Shown: piece by piece, positions 49,733 to 56,792 of the stretch
How positions within the stretch are numbered: position 1 is the stretch's first letter
Layout of the letters: the number at the start of each line of letters is the position of its first letter
From: Arcobacter sp.
GTDB taxonomy: Bacteria > Acidobacteriota > Terriglobia > Bryobacterales > Bryobacteraceae
DNA: 64,000 bases
Reading direction: 5' to 3'
Assembly (NCBI GenBank): GCA_020723085.1
Contig: DYJN01000013.1
Coordinates: 1 to 64,000, forward strand
The notes under the pieces: generated by a model
The model's input: only the letters and a program-made list of their open reading frames with translations
Database searches by the model: none
What the model was told of the DNA's origin: nothing
Position numbers and translations under genes: made by a program

Positions 49733-50049
49733 TCCGGCCGCCGGAAAGCATGAGGCTGCCCCGCCGCTGTCATTCTCGATACACGCATCCATTTCCCCGG
49801 TTTCTTGACGCCGCCCCTAAGGCCTATCGCCGGGTTTCTGCTGGAAAAATCCCTTAAAACCGGGACGGAGCCGCCTTTCGGTGTAGACGAGCAGACCGCT
49901 TTCCGCGATAGTACTTGCAGAGGAGTTCTTCGCGGCGGTTCCGCACGGCCCTGCCGGCCCGGGCGGCCGCCGCGCAAGCGATGGCGAACCTGCCGCCGCA
50001 CACAAAGGCGGCGCGGAAGGTGGCTGAGAGCCGGCCTGGAGGTAAGCGG

Positions 50050-51129
50050 ATGCTGCACAAGCGACAAAGAACGCTGAGGCAGGGCGGTTTCGCTCTGGTG
50101 ATGACCGCCATCTGCATTATCCTGCTCATCGGAATGATGGGGCTCACTGTGGATCTGGGACGGGCGTTTGTGGTGAAGAACGAAGCCCAGGCCTTCACGG
50201 ACTCGGCGGCGCTCGCTGCTGCCATACAGCTGAACGGCAGCTCCAAAGGTGTCGCGAACGCCAAGACCGTGGTGGCCTCGCTCTCCAGCAGCAACAAGTG
50301 GCAGTTCAACAAACGCACGTTCACCAGCGTCCTGCTGGAATTCAGCGAGAACAAGTCGACCTGGACCGAAAACCCGGCGTCGGCCACAAACATCAAGTAC
50401 GCGCGGGTGACGGCCACGGTCAGGGATCTGCCCTCTTACTTCATGCCGCTGGTGGGCGCAGCGCGCCTGATGCGGGTCTCGGTGCGCTCCATGGCTGGTT
50501 CCGAGCTGCCCACATCTTTCCCGCAGGGCGTGTTCCCCTTCGCTCCTTTCGCAAAGAATAATACACCGCCGGACTTCGGCTACAACTACGGGGATGAGCT
50601 CACGCTGCTGTGGCCATCCAGCATCGGCAGCAACGGTCCAGTCAAGATGAACAATCTTTGCAAGGCGGATCAGAACCAGGCGGCGCTGGACGCCGTGAAG
50701 GAGGGCGTCACCGCCGAGCGCGGCTACATCATGGAAAACAGCACAGACGCCATCCGCGCGGCGGTCGAGGACGACCGCGCAGACTACACCGTGGAGCTCG
50801 GCATGCCTGTCGAGCGCACCACGGGCGTCAAGCACACGGTTGTGAAGGACAGCCTGGCGGACCGCGTGGCGCAGGACTCGTTGCCTGACGTCTGGAACTA
50901 CCAGCAGTATCTGGACAGCCACGACGCGGGTCCGATGCGCCGCGTGGTGATCGTGCCCATCATCAGCGACGCGAACAGCGCGATCGTACTCGGTTTCGCC
51001 AAGGTCTTTCTTCCACCGTCCCAGCCGAAAAATCCGAACGACGCCAAGTGCGCCATCTACATCGGACCGGCCACCGGCCCCGTCGGCAACATCGCCACCG
51101 GCGCCAACTTCGTGAGGTTGCTCGAATGA
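50050..51129 (+). CDS. TadG-like (Flp pilus assembly) protein
   Basis: RQGGFALVMTAICIILLIGMMGLTVDLGRAFVVKNEAQAFTDSAALAAAIQL, a Tad/TadG N-terminal pattern. Confidence 0.8.
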   Translation: MLHKRQRTLRQGGFALVMTAICIILLIGMMGLTVDLGRAFVVKNEAQAFTDSAALAAAIQLNGSSKGVANAKTVVASLSSSNKWQFNKRTFTSVLLEFSENKSTWTENPASATNIKYARVTATVRDLPSYFMPLVGAARLMRVSVRSMAGSELPTSFPQGVFPFAPFAKNNTPPDFGYNYGDELTLLWPSSIGSNGPVKMNNLCKADQNQAALDAVKEGVTAERGYIMENSTDAIRAAVEDDRADYTVELGMPVERTTGVKHTVVKDSLADRVAQDSLPDVWNYQQYLDSHDAGPMRRVVIVPIISDANSAIVLGFAKVFLPPSQPKNPNDAKCAIYIGPATGPVGNIATGANFVRLLE

Positions 51130-51599
51130 GAAACGCACGGAACAGCCGCCGCCGCGGCAACGCCTTCATCGAGTTCGCTCTCGCCGCCGGACTGCTCCTG
51201 CCCGTGATGATGGGCACATTCCAGTTCGGCTACACCCTCTACACTTACAACTTGCTGCAGTCTGCCGTCTCCAACGGCGGGCGCTACGCCGCTTACCGCA
51301 CCTACCGCGCCGCGTCCGGGCAGACCGACGTGAACAAGTTCCGTCTGGCGGTCCAGAACATGACCGTGTATGGATCGCCCTACCCGGCGTCGAATTCCGT
51401 CGCTGTCGTCAAGGGGCTGAAGCCGGCTGACATCGACGTGCTCTTCACCCTGACGGCGACACAGATTCCGACCGCCGTGACCGTGCGGGTGAACTCCTAC
51501 ACCGTCGATGGCGTCTTCGGAAAGTACACGTTCGCGGGCTACCCCACATTCACCATGCCTTACTTGGGACGTTATGCGCCAGAAGAATCCGAACCGTAA
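51126..51599 (+). CDS. TadE-like pseudopilin
   Basis: RRRGNAFIEFALAAGLLLPVMMGTFQFGYTLYTYNLLQSAVSNGGRYA; ATGA overlap with tadG-like. Confidence 0.82.
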   Translation: MRNARNSRRRGNAFIEFALAAGLLLPVMMGTFQFGYTLYTYNLLQSAVSNGGRYAAYRTYRAASGQTDVNKFRLAVQNMTVYGSPYPASNSVAVVKGLKPADIDVLFTLTATQIPTAVTVRVNSYTVDGVFGKYTFAGYPTFTMPYLGRYAPEESEP

Positions 51600-52026
51600 A
51601 ATCCAAGCCAGGCGGCGCGGGCAGGCTCTGATCGAGTCCGCGCTGGTTCTGATCGTGGCCATCTCCACGATCATCGCCATCCTCGACTTCTCGCAGCTCA
51701 TGTTCACGCATCAGCTCCTCGTGGAGCGGACGCGCAACGCGCTCCGCTGGGGCATGATCCACGAATGGGACGGTACGGGCGACGCGATCGCCGGCATGGT
51801 CATGTACGGAAAGCCCGCCGGGGGTACGGGACTTGGCGTGCTCGGGCTCACCCGCTCGAACGTCCGCGTCGTTTTCACCCCGGGCACAGCAGCCAATCCG
51901 AATGACGCCCGCCTCACCGTGGCGATCGTCGACTACGACTACCGCTTCTTCACGCCCTTTATCGCCGGCAAGTTCCGGAACAACTTCGCCGTGGTCGAAT
52001 CCTCGCCGTATACGTATCTGGATTGA
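51574..52026 (+). CDS. Second TadE-like pseudopilin
   Basis: RRRGQALIESALVLIVAISTIIAILDFSQLMFTHQLLVERTRNALRWG; overlaps the preceding gene. Confidence 0.78.
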   Translation: MRQKNPNRKIQARRRGQALIESALVLIVAISTIIAILDFSQLMFTHQLLVERTRNALRWGMIHEWDGTGDAIAGMVMYGKPAGGTGLGVLGLTRSNVRVVFTPGTAANPNDARLTVAIVDYDYRFFTPFIAGKFRNNFAVVESSPYTYLD

Positions 52027-53440: not shown

Positions 53441-53533
53441 CCGTGTTAACAGCCTCTCACAACCCGCGCCGCCTTGCCCGGCCGGGCGCCCATCCTGTAT
53501 GATTCCGTCAAGCCCATTAAAGGAGGTGGCTGT

Positions 53534-54082
53534 CTGAAACGAAGATCGTTCCTCGCCGGCTCTCTCGCCGCTGCCTCCGCCTGCAGGAGCAAGCCGGCGC
53601 CCGCCGCCGGATACCGGTTCCTCACGCAGGCGGAGGTGGCCACGCTCGGGGCGTGGGTGGACACGCTGATTCCGCCCGATGAAGATCCGGGCGCGCGCGG
53701 CGCGGGAGTCGTCCGCTACATCGATCTCCAGCTCACCCGCTGGTTCCGGCGTCATCAGAGCAGCTACCGCGAGGCGCTCGCGCGGATCGACCGTTGGGCG
53801 CGTTCGCGCGCCGGGCGCGGTTTCGCGGAGTTGCCTCCCGACACCCGCGAAGAGTTGCTCTCCCTGATGGAGCAGGGCGAAGCCGACCGCGATCATTTCC
53901 CGGACGGCGGCAAGGGCGCTTTCGAACTCGTGCTCGCTCATGCGATGCAGGGGTTCTATGGAAACCCCCGCCACGGGGGCAACCGCGGTTACGCCTCCTG
54001 GAAGATGATCGGCGTGCCGCCCGTGCCCGTGCGCGGGCGCGAGCACTACGAAGCCGCGCGGACATTCCCGGAAAAGAGCTGA
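53534..54082 (+). CDS. Gluconate 2-dehydrogenase subunit 3-like protein, Tat-type signal
   Basis: KRRSFLAGSLAAASAC; FLTQAEVATLGAWVDTLIPPDEDPGARGAGVVRYIDLQL; strong SD AGGAGG but only a CTG codon at correct spacing. Confidence 0.82.
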   Translation: MKRRSFLAGSLAAASACRSKPAPAAGYRFLTQAEVATLGAWVDTLIPPDEDPGARGAGVVRYIDLQLTRWFRRHQSSYREALARIDRWARSRAGRGFAELPPDTREELLSLMEQGEADRDHFPDGGKGAFELVLAHAMQGFYGNPRHGGNRGYASWKMIGVPPVPVRGREHYEAARTFPEKS

Positions 54083-55743
54083 TGCCCCTGCCCAAAGTCG
54101 ATGCCGTCGTCATCGGGGCGGGCGCCGCCGGCCCCATCGTCGCCAAAGAGCTCGCCTTTGCCGGCTGGCGCGTCGTGCTGCTCGAAAAAGGCCGCTGGCA
54201 CACGTCCGCCGATTGCCGCAAGGACGACCTGCGCAACCAGCGCAATCCCACGCTCGGCTATCCGTTCGGCCCTGAGGAAGAGGGAAATCCCCGCGTCTTT
54301 GTCGATCTCAACGGGCGCGAGCGCATCGTGAAGCCGTCCGAGCCGGGCTACAACAACAACGCCTTCTGCGTCGGCGGCGGCACCCTCTCCTACGGCGCCA
54401 TGGCTTGGCGCTTCCACCCCAACGACTTCCGCATGCGCAGCACATATGCGGCGAAAGTCCCCCGCGCTTTCGAAAATTCCACGCTCGAAGACTGGCCCAT
54501 TTCCTATGAAGACCTCGAGCCGTTCTACGAAAAAGCGGAATGGGAGATCGGCGTCAGCGGCGACTTGTCCGGCGATCCTTTCAAAGGGCCGCGCCGGCGC
54601 GCCCTGCCGATGCCTCCGCTGCCCCCCACGCGCGAGCACGAGATTCTGGAGAAGGGCGCCCGCCGCCTCGGCCTGCACCCGTTTTCGATCCCGATGCTGC
54701 GCAACTCGGTGCCGTACAATGGCCGTCCCGCCTGTATGAGGTGCCGCTGGTGCGTCGGCTTCGCCTGTGAAGTGGACGCGAAAAACGGCACGCAGAATAC
54801 GGTCATTCCCGCCGCCTTGGCCACGGGAAATCTCGAGCTCCGCACGGAGTGCTCCGTCCGTGAAATTCTTCTCGATGAGAAGGGCGACGCCGCCGGCGTT
54901 GCCTACTTCGACCGCGAAGGGCGCCCGTGGGAGCAGCCCGCCCGCTACGTCGTCGTCTCCTGCGGGGCCATCGAAAGCGCCCGCCTGCTGCTGAACTCGC
55001 GTTCGCGCCTCTACCCGCAGGGCTTGGGCAACCGGTTCGATTGGGTCGGGCGCAATCTCCAGGGGCACACCTACACGGGCGCGAACGGGCTGTTCGAGGA
55101 GATCGTCTACGACGACCTCGGCCCTGGCGCCAGCATCGCCATCTGCGACTTCAACCACGGCAATCCTGGCCTTGCGGGCGGCGCCATGCTCGCCAACGAG
55201 TTCATCCGCCTCCCCTATCAGTTCGTCTCCGGCATCCGCGCCCCTGGTGTGCCCCGCTGGGGCCGCGCCCACAAGGAATTCGTGCGCCGCGCTTACCGCC
55301 GCATCATCCCCGTGCTGGGCCCCACGCAGGAGATTCCCGTCTTCGATTCGCGCGTCACGCTCGACCCGCGCGTGCGCGACCGGTTCGGCATCCCCGTGGC
55401 CCGCATCTCCGGCTACCGCCACCCGCACAGCATCGAAGTCTCCGAATACATGGCGGAGCGCGCGGCTGATTGGCTCCGCGCCTCCGGCGCCGTGAAAGTC
55501 TGGCTGCGGCGCGCCGGCCGCGGCGTCAGCGGCGGCCAGCATCAGGCCGGCACCTGCCGCATGGGCAGGGATCCGAAGACCTCCGTGGTCGATCCGTGGT
55601 GCCGGGTCCACGACACCGCCAACGTGTACGTGGTCGACGCCAGCGTCCACGTGACCAATGGCGGCTTCAATCCCGTGCTCACCATCATGGCCATCGCCTA
55701 TCGCACAGGCGCGCATCTGGCGCGCGCGGGGAGGCGCGCGTGA
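54082..55743 (+). CDS. GMC-family FAD oxidoreductase (gluconate/sugar dehydrogenase-like large subunit)
   Basis: VDAVVIGAGAAGPIVAKELAFAGWRVVLLEKG; CMRCRWCVGFAC cluster; HQAGTCRMGRDPKTSVVDPWCRVHDTANVYVVDASVHVTNGGFNPVLTIMAIAYRTGAHL. Confidence 0.92.
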   Translation: MPLPKVDAVVIGAGAAGPIVAKELAFAGWRVVLLEKGRWHTSADCRKDDLRNQRNPTLGYPFGPEEEGNPRVFVDLNGRERIVKPSEPGYNNNAFCVGGGTLSYGAMAWRFHPNDFRMRSTYAAKVPRAFENSTLEDWPISYEDLEPFYEKAEWEIGVSGDLSGDPFKGPRRRALPMPPLPPTREHEILEKGARRLGLHPFSIPMLRNSVPYNGRPACMRCRWCVGFACEVDAKNGTQNTVIPAALATGNLELRTECSVREILLDEKGDAAGVAYFDREGRPWEQPARYVVVSCGAIESARLLLNSRSRLYPQGLGNRFDWVGRNLQGHTYTGANGLFEEIVYDDLGPGASIAICDFNHGNPGLAGGAMLANEFIRLPYQFVSGIRAPGVPRWGRAHKEFVRRAYRRIIPVLGPTQEIPVFDSRVTLDPRVRDRFGIPVARISGYRHPHSIEVSEYMAERAADWLRASGAVKVWLRRAGRGVSGGQHQAGTCRMGRDPKTSVVDPWCRVHDTANVYVVDASVHVTNGGFNPVLTIMAIAYRTGAHLARAGRRA

Positions 55744-56792
55744 AAGCCGCTGCCGCCGCCCTGGTGCTGGGGCTCGCCCTCCTGCTCATGATTCCCGCGG
55801 CGAGCTTTCTCTACGAGGCTGGCGGGCCCGATGCCTGCGCCCGCTGCCACGAAATGGGAGCGCCCGTGGGCGAGTGGCGCCATTCCACGCACCGCGGCAC
55901 GCCCTGCAGCGCCTGCCACGGCGACGCCCTCACCGCCGGCGCCCGCTTCCATCTCGCCAATGCCCGCCGCGTGGTCCAGCACTGGCGCGGCGAAGCCGGC
56001 GAGCTCGCGCCGCTCGGCCCTGAAGGGATCCGCGCCATGCTGCCCCGCTGCCAGAAATGCCACCAGCAGGAGTTCGCCTCCTGGTCGAGCGGTCCCCACT
56101 CGATCACCTACCGCAGCATCTTCCTCGACGAAAAGCACAACTCCACGCGGCACTTGATGGACGATTGCCTCCGCTGCCATGGCATGCACTTCGATGGCGG
56201 CATCCGCGATCTCGTCGAACCGCTCTCCATCAAAGGCCCTTGGCGGCTCCGCCGCCCAGAACTGCTCGAAGAGCCCGCCATCCCGTGCCTCGCGTGCCAC
56301 TCCATCCACCGCCGCGGCGCCCTGCACGAAGAGCGCCGCCTGGAAGCGAAAATCGCCGGTCCGCGCCAGGAGAAGTTCCGCCCGTCCCTCGTCTTCTTCG
56401 ACCGCCGTTCGATGGCGCCCGTGGACGTGGCTCTGCTGCCCTTGCCCGCCATGATCGACGGCGCGCGTCCGGTGAAGACGAGTCCCGACCCGCGGCAGGC
56501 GCTCTGCTATCAGTGCCATGCTCCTCTGAGCACGCGGCAGGTGTTCTCAGGCGACGACCGCACGCCCGCCGGCGTGCACGAGGGAATCTCCTGTCTTGCC
56601 TGTCACGACAAGCACCGCCAGACCACGCGCGCCTCATGCGCCAACTGCCACCCGCGCCTGTCCAATTGCGGCCTCGACGTCGAGAAGATGGACACGACCT
56701 TCCTCAACAAAGATTCGAGGCACAACATTCACACGGTCAAGTGCGCCGACTGCCACCCCAGGGGAGTGCCCGCCCGCCGCGCTCGTCCCTAG
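55740..56792 (+). CDS. Nonaheme c-type cytochrome
   Basis: Nine CXXCH motifs counted: CARCH, CSACH, CQKCH, CLRCH, CLACH, CYQCH, CLACH, CANCH, CADCH; N-terminal signal/TM helix; GTGA overlap with the GMC gene. Confidence 0.93.
   Translation: MKAAAAALVLGLALLLMIPAASFLYEAGGPDACARCHEMGAPVGEWRHSTHRGTPCSACHGDALTAGARFHLANARRVVQHWRGEAGELAPLGPEGIRAMLPRCQKCHQQEFASWSSGPHSITYRSIFLDEKHNSTRHLMDDCLRCHGMHFDGGIRDLVEPLSIKGPWRLRRPELLEEPAIPCLACHSIHRRGALHEERRLEAKIAGPRQEKFRPSLVFFDRRSMAPVDVALLPLPAMIDGARPVKTSPDPRQALCYQCHAPLSTRQVFSGDDRTPAGVHEGISCLACHDKHRQTTRASCANCHPRLSNCGLDVEKMDTTFLNKDSRHNIHTVKCADCHPRGVPARRARP

Follow-up and report, generated by a model that had tools for sequence, protein, structure and literature searches.

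Three overlapping genes encode, in that order, a subunit 3 protein, a GMC flavoprotein and a nonaheme cytochrome c on the forward strand of the window (53534-56792), the window being the whole 64,000-nucleotide stretch of DNA analysed. On balance, we think that this cassette specifies one exported heterotrimeric dehydrogenase, in which the nonaheme cytochrome replaces the triheme subunit and probably feeds quinone. Gene order, domains, conserved residues and strict linkage are direct observations. Within a known dehydrogenase class, the cassette, which occurs in soil Acidobacteria, seems to be a variant not described before, and no description of it was found in the literature searched (mostly without subscription papers). 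The genes and their signals are as follows.

53474..53503, +: match to a sigma-70-like promoter, TTGCCC-18-TATGAT (consensus match only)
53519..53526, +: strong Shine-Dalgarno sequence, AAAGGAGG (GGAGG spacing conserved among CTG-start loci)
53534..54082, +: subunit 3 gene (CTG start, TGA stop; Gluconate_2-dh3, PF13618)
54082..55743, +: GMC FAD-dependent dehydrogenase, catalytic subunit (Pfam GMC_oxred_N and GMC_oxred_C)
55740..56792, +: nonaheme c-type cytochrome, whole gene (GTG start; nine CXXCH)
55740..56183, +: N-terminal anchor and predicted NrfH-type tetraheme module of the cytochrome, residues 1-148 (hhalign, PDB NrfH profile match)
56184..56789, +: C-terminal pentaheme part of the cytochrome, c7/c3-like (Pfam Cytochrome_C7, E 4.7e-13)

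The operon and its dehydrogenase subunits

The subunit 3 and GMC frames meet at TGATG, with a one-base overlap, and the GMC and cytochrome frames at GTGA, with a four-base overlap. One sigma-70-like consensus match was found before the operon, against 0.2 expected in shuffles; 31 nt separate it from the start codon of subunit 3. Translation of this subunit appears to initiate at CTG, a rare start codon. CTG occupies the start position in 12 loci including the window (the others being L032-L038, L048, L054, L062 and L106), GTG is found in L139 and ATG in the others, and of the 12 CTG-start loci, window included, all but one have GGAGG at an identical, ideal distance from the start. In L034 an in-frame stop lies shortly 5' of the subunit 3 gene, and the possible starts there are ATT or CTG only. 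A regulatory role is possible for the conserved CTG start combined with its strong ribosome-binding sequence.

Upstream, the divergent neighbour is presumably xseA, named from its sequence, and a convergent glycosyltransferase gene lies downstream of the cassette. Elsewhere in the window (49915-52026, +), Tad/TadE-like pilus-assembly proteins are encoded in a row. The source genome is that of a Bryobacteraceae-type acidobacterium. Neither a second Gluconate_2-dh3 protein nor a second GMC enzyme was found in it; the cassette is therefore its only system of this class.

Subunit 3 has a Gluconate_2-dh3 domain (PF13618, E 5.9e-28). This "hitchhiker" subunit carries a twin-arginine signal (KRRSFL), and the twin arginine is also seen in the aligned homologues (72). 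Its Cys17 resembles a lipobox cysteine, and nearly all of the 72 homologues have a Cys just past the hydrophobic stretch. Since a Tat signal is combined with a conserved Cys after a hydrophobic stretch, subunit 3 is probably a Tat-exported lipoprotein.

Searched as a single sequence, the GMC protein had FAD glucose dehydrogenase as its best PDB match (6a2u, E 1.7e-53), and its profile matched FAD glucose dehydrogenase in the PDB with E 2.8e-81; the best solved-structure matches were the large subunits of FAD glucose dehydrogenase and fructose dehydrogenase. None of the NCBIfam equivalogs fits the protein. Its catalytic pair His487/Asn530 aligns with the conserved His/Asn pair of the class, which in the glucose dehydrogenase (GDH) of B. 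cepacia is His476/Asn519, the cluster ligands of that enzyme being Cys212, Cys218 and Cys222 (PMC6719666). At the Fe-S ligand positions of B. cepacia GDH, the window protein has Cys218, Cys224 and Cys229, with a one-residue difference in spacing and a further cysteine, Cys221. Across 24 homologues Cys218, Cys224, Cys229 and Asn530 are invariant and His487 nearly so. The three cysteines would hold a surface Fe-S cluster, which in the known heterotrimers is of the 3Fe-4S type. Cys221 was considered as a marker of the cytochrome-bearing GMC clade and rejected, being present also in most cytochrome-less sister enzymes. The substrate class would be a sugar, polyol or related alcohol, and periplasmic sugar/alcohol oxidase seems a reasonable description of the enzyme.

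The nonaheme cytochrome and its linkage to the dehydrogenase

The cytochrome is 350 residues long, with CXXCH at residues 33, 56, 104, 143, 183, 256, 285, 300 and 335. All nine motifs are kept in 80 of 82 homologues, which places the set far beyond chance. A single hydrophobic helix is found at the N-terminus (best 19-residue Kyte-Doolittle window 2.43, at residue 6), and after residue 40 no such window exceeds 1.2. Pfam found no monoheme cytochrome c domain in the protein, which with its nine CXXCH is not of the triheme type.

Judging from profile comparisons, the cytochrome is an NrfH-type tetraheme module fused to a c7/c3-like pentaheme tail. Residues 22-148 align with canonical acidobacterial NrfH proteins from within the same family (hhalign probability 99.2, E 2.5e-19), and the profile of the cytochrome gave PDB NrfH 2j7a as the best structural relative (E 1.4e-7). 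NrfH structures (2j7a and 2vr0) were also the top Foldseek matches of the structure model, below significance (E 0.18); the model (pLDDT 67.5, its C-terminal half mostly 35-60) is too weak in the tail to place hemes. The pentaheme tail carries the family signature HPxLSNCGxDVEKMDTTF, and the best-conserved stretches of the cytochrome lie in it. Nine His outside the motifs are at least 88% conserved (H51, H81, H120, H133, H190, H280, H292, H328 and H331), about one per heme, so that bis-His, low-potential hemes fit.

At the variable residue of the heme-1 motif CXXCHXM (CARCHEM in the window protein), 40 of the 82 cytochromes have Met and 42 have Ile. Lys82 and Asp89 of the NrfH quinol site (D. 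vulgaris numbering), treated as diagnostic by other authors (PMC10654088, PMC4683180), are aligned by hhalign with a gap and with Arg77, in a loop where the alignment is uncertain. Since the heme-1 Met is half lost and Lys82 and Asp89 have no counterpart, quinone reactivity of the cytochrome is without residue-by-residue support. The NCBIfam NrfH equivalog TIGR03153 scored 42.5 bits, below its cut-off of 134.2. By these comparisons the cytochrome is NrfH-like in layout, and we class it neither as NrfH nor as an established quinone enzyme.

The GMC gene lies directly 5' of the cytochrome gene in 79 of the 80 loci from named genomes, the exception being at a contig edge, and every locus with enough contig also has subunit 3. 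About half of the GMC/cytochrome gene pairs have the identical four-base overlap. Across 150 genomes of the bacterial family, the cytochrome was found in 56 and a GMC protein with at least 64% identity in 55, all of them within the 56; in the remaining cytochrome-bearing genome, which has no close GMC, the cytochrome is at a contig edge. The next GMC group (56-60% identity, 18 genomes) is without the nonaheme cytochrome, except for one genome with both kinds, and at the seven sister-type loci inspected subunit 3 and GMC are encoded, but the several kilobases around them have no multiheme gene. The cytochrome-bearing GMCs cluster in a FastTree phylogeny, with L141 as the sole cytochrome-less member among them. 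Most simply, the cytochrome would have been acquired once, close to the root of this clade. The three cassette proteins also diverge in correlation (rho 0.58-0.67; 0 of 500 permutations).

A preliminary description made from the DNA letters had proposed a GMC dehydrogenase complex with its own membrane-anchored nonaheme cytochrome instead of a triheme one, and the domains and linkage support it. Its coordinates and strand for the three genes, the GTGA overlap, the nine CXXCH and the membrane anchor were all confirmed, and the search that it suggested for GMC, subunit 3 and multiheme synteny yielded the linkage reported here; DUF1348, which it had named beside the subunit 3 domain, has no part in the cassette.

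A comparison of the flanks of 66 loci revealed no conserved neighbours beyond the three genes, antisense shadows apart. A wider cluster holding clues to the substrate was considered and rejected, as these flanks generally hold just the three genes. A Tat-signal protein without Pfam match is found upstream of the cassette in about 10 loci, and a GFO/IDH/MocA oxidoreductase cluster beside it in eight; neither is general. The cytochrome was present in only 5 of 396 genomes of a phylum-wide sample, and no plasmid homologues were found.

Our search also identified matches outside the cassette. A free-standing C-terminal module was considered and rejected, since the match in genome G074 is a decayed remnant and that in G096 is cut by the contig end. 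The G074 remnant (L168, 7711-8149) derives from the C-terminal part of the cytochrome and is not surrounded by an operon, which suggests that the gene was lost recently. Genome G390 encodes a divergent nine-heme paralogue (L194, 3254-4306) with 36% identity and the same C-terminal signature. Its 4.7-kb contig has no GMC or subunit 3 gene, which counts against the proposed complex, and a wider family of nonaheme cytochromes may therefore exist.

Proposed electron path and alternatives

In the complex that we infer, subunit 3 with its Tat signal (probably a lipoprotein) would take the GMC flavoprotein, already folded, across the membrane. The flavoprotein would oxidise a sugar, polyol or related alcohol by means of FAD and the His/Asn pair, and FAD would pass the electrons to the surface Fe-S cluster (Cys218, Cys224, Cys229), two steps suggested by conserved residues and homology. 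From the cluster the electrons would reach the nonaheme cytochrome. The conserved pentaheme tail would dock on the dehydrogenase, as its conservation and linkage suggest. The NrfH-type tetraheme module, with its one transmembrane helix, would most likely pass the electrons to (mena)quinone. A quinol-dehydrogenase module would then run in reverse, a step suggested by the ancestry of the module and by the reported precedents of cytochrome cM552, a quinone reductase in ammonia oxidisers (PMC3701875), and CymA, which operates in both directions (PMC6295460). Three COX1-type oxidases in the source genome could respire the reduced quinone. The more specific proposal, an undescribed (sugar/polyol):menaquinone oxidoreductase with the reversed NrfH-type module as the quinone-reducing end of a GMC-fed nonaheme chain, is a tentative one, which we doubt slightly more than we believe.

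The flavoprotein-cytochrome dehydrogenases known from this class have triheme cytochromes. The hemes of fructose dehydrogenase are reported to lie at 143-545 mV (PMC6472588). With menaquinone at about -70 mV, hemes at such potentials could not reduce it. A low-potential multiheme replacement would show menaquinone-using soil bacteria wiring the same dehydrogenase to respiration. If true, the cassette would represent a low-potential acidobacterial solution where acetic acid bacteria rely on high-potential triheme cytochromes, and it would be a clear case of NrfH-type modules re-used to collect, not donate, electrons. For biosensors and bioelectrodes, multiheme-wired enzymes resembling glucose dehydrogenase would likewise be directly relevant.

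The same dehydrogenase complex might instead pass electrons through its cytochrome to periplasmic or outer-surface cytochromes (e.g., for Fe(III) reduction), the NrfH-type part serving as anchor and wire only. The cytochrome does not conserve the NrfH residues of the quinol site, nine hemes are long for a quinone connection, and one host of the cassette, Paludibaculum fermentans P105T (GMC, 76%, and cytochrome, 67%, at 7574854-7577540), is facultatively anaerobic, reduces Fe(III) and is rich in multiheme cytochromes (PMC8407742). However, no conserved porin or other cytochrome gene accompanies the cassette in 66 loci, and the MtrB/PioB match in the source genome is borderline only. The NrfH-type module, moreover, stems from a quinone-reactive family, and the NrfH-type N-terminal half favours the quinone pool over an outward wire. 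We regard the outward route as possible, if unlikely. Since P. fermentans P105T is a cultured, facultatively anaerobic and Fe(III)-reducing isolate that carries the cassette, both the quinone and the outward route are testable in it.

Less probable still is that the genes are co-expressed but yield two separate units, namely a GMC/subunit 3 enzyme (soluble or with a lipoprotein anchor) that donates to a general acceptor, and a cytochrome required in the same circumstances. Sister GMC/subunit 3 pairs (55-60% identity) without a nearby multiheme cytochrome, presumably functional, are consistent with such an arrangement. Against it, the GMC/cytochrome pair is never split in the 55 genomes of the cytochrome-bearing clade, the reading frames often overlap, and the cytochrome tail is among the most conserved parts, as expected of a docking surface.

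Finally, we strongly disfavour, to the point of giving it hardly any credence, the reading of the cytochrome as a quinol dehydrogenase of the NrfH/NrfB kind for nitrite or another periplasmic reductase, with its place after GMC incidental: it has N-terminal similarity to NrfH and weak C-terminal similarity to NrfB/DmsE, but the source genome keeps it without NrfA (no PF02335 match), NrfA-bearing relatives have a separate four-heme NrfH adjoining NrfA, 35 of the 56 cytochrome-bearing genomes lack NrfA (150 genomes: both 21, cytochrome only 35, NrfA only 21, neither 73; p = 0.06), and its linkage to GMC is virtually complete. On this genome content (NrfA absence, separate NrfH) a disguised NrfB or NrfH was rejected.

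These results also bear on what the preliminary description had said of function. Its suggestion of nitrogen-oxide respiration is not supported, given the missing NrfA of the source genome and the separate canonical NrfH by NrfA in relatives that have NrfA, and its alternative of extracellular respiration gained no positive evidence, with MtrB/PioB borderline only and no conserved porin or cytochrome neighbour. It had named an NrfB/NapC-like cytochrome found independently of GMC genes as contrary evidence; independence is contradicted by the strict linkage, and the NrfH-type nature of the N-terminal half had been overlooked.

Elsewhere in the source genome (L172, G000:C60 near 68454-68693), a NapC-like protein has five CXXCH in a 496-aa frame, and its gene adjoins that of a multiheme protein with apparent transmembrane helices. 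This region is possibly a separate quinone-linked cytochrome system.

Comparison with known systems

In Campylobacter jejuni, the gluconate dehydrogenase Cj0414/Cj0415 has two genes, of the subunit 3 and GMC types. Its electrons reportedly enter at the level of cytochromes c (PMC5656828), and, in contrast to the cassette, no nonaheme cytochrome is fused or operon-linked to it. ImcH and CbcL are inner-membrane multiheme quinone oxidoreductases with 6-10 and 3-23 motifs, respectively (PMC6295460); the cassette cytochrome differs in having one predicted helix, no b-type domain and a dehydrogenase operon (ImcH being set apart by description). The C-terminal b-type cytochrome of the CbcL/MtrH/MtoC type, with about six transmembrane helices, is absent, there being no hydrophobic helix past residue 40.

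With the tetraheme quinol dehydrogenases NrfH, NapC, CymA and cM552, the cytochrome shares the N-terminal signal-anchor helix and four CXXCH in order, with a profile match over residues 22-148. Unlike them, it has five extra C-terminal hemes and an insertion between hemes 3 and 4, keeps the heme-1 Met in half of its members, has no counterparts of Lys82 and Asp89, and is partnered by a GMC dehydrogenase.

The closest comparison is with the flavoprotein-cytochrome heterotrimers: FAD-GDH of B. cepacia (PDB 6a2u, 8grj), fructose dehydrogenase (7w2j) and gluconate 2-dehydrogenase. The cassette has in common with them a GMC protein with the His/Asn pair and putative Fe-S cysteines, a Tat hitchhiker subunit and, as the third gene, a membrane-bound c-type cytochrome. 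The putative Fe-S loop of its GMC protein reads C-x2-C-x2-C-x4-C, in contrast to CC-x4-C-x3-C in the known heterotrimers, whose cytochrome anchor is C-terminal rather than N-terminal. Their cytochrome is triheme, whereas that of the cassette is a nonaheme protein of the NrfH/c7 type with many conserved extra His, and because of this difference we regard the cassette as a variant, rather than a member, of the gluconate/fructose/FAD-glucose dehydrogenase class.
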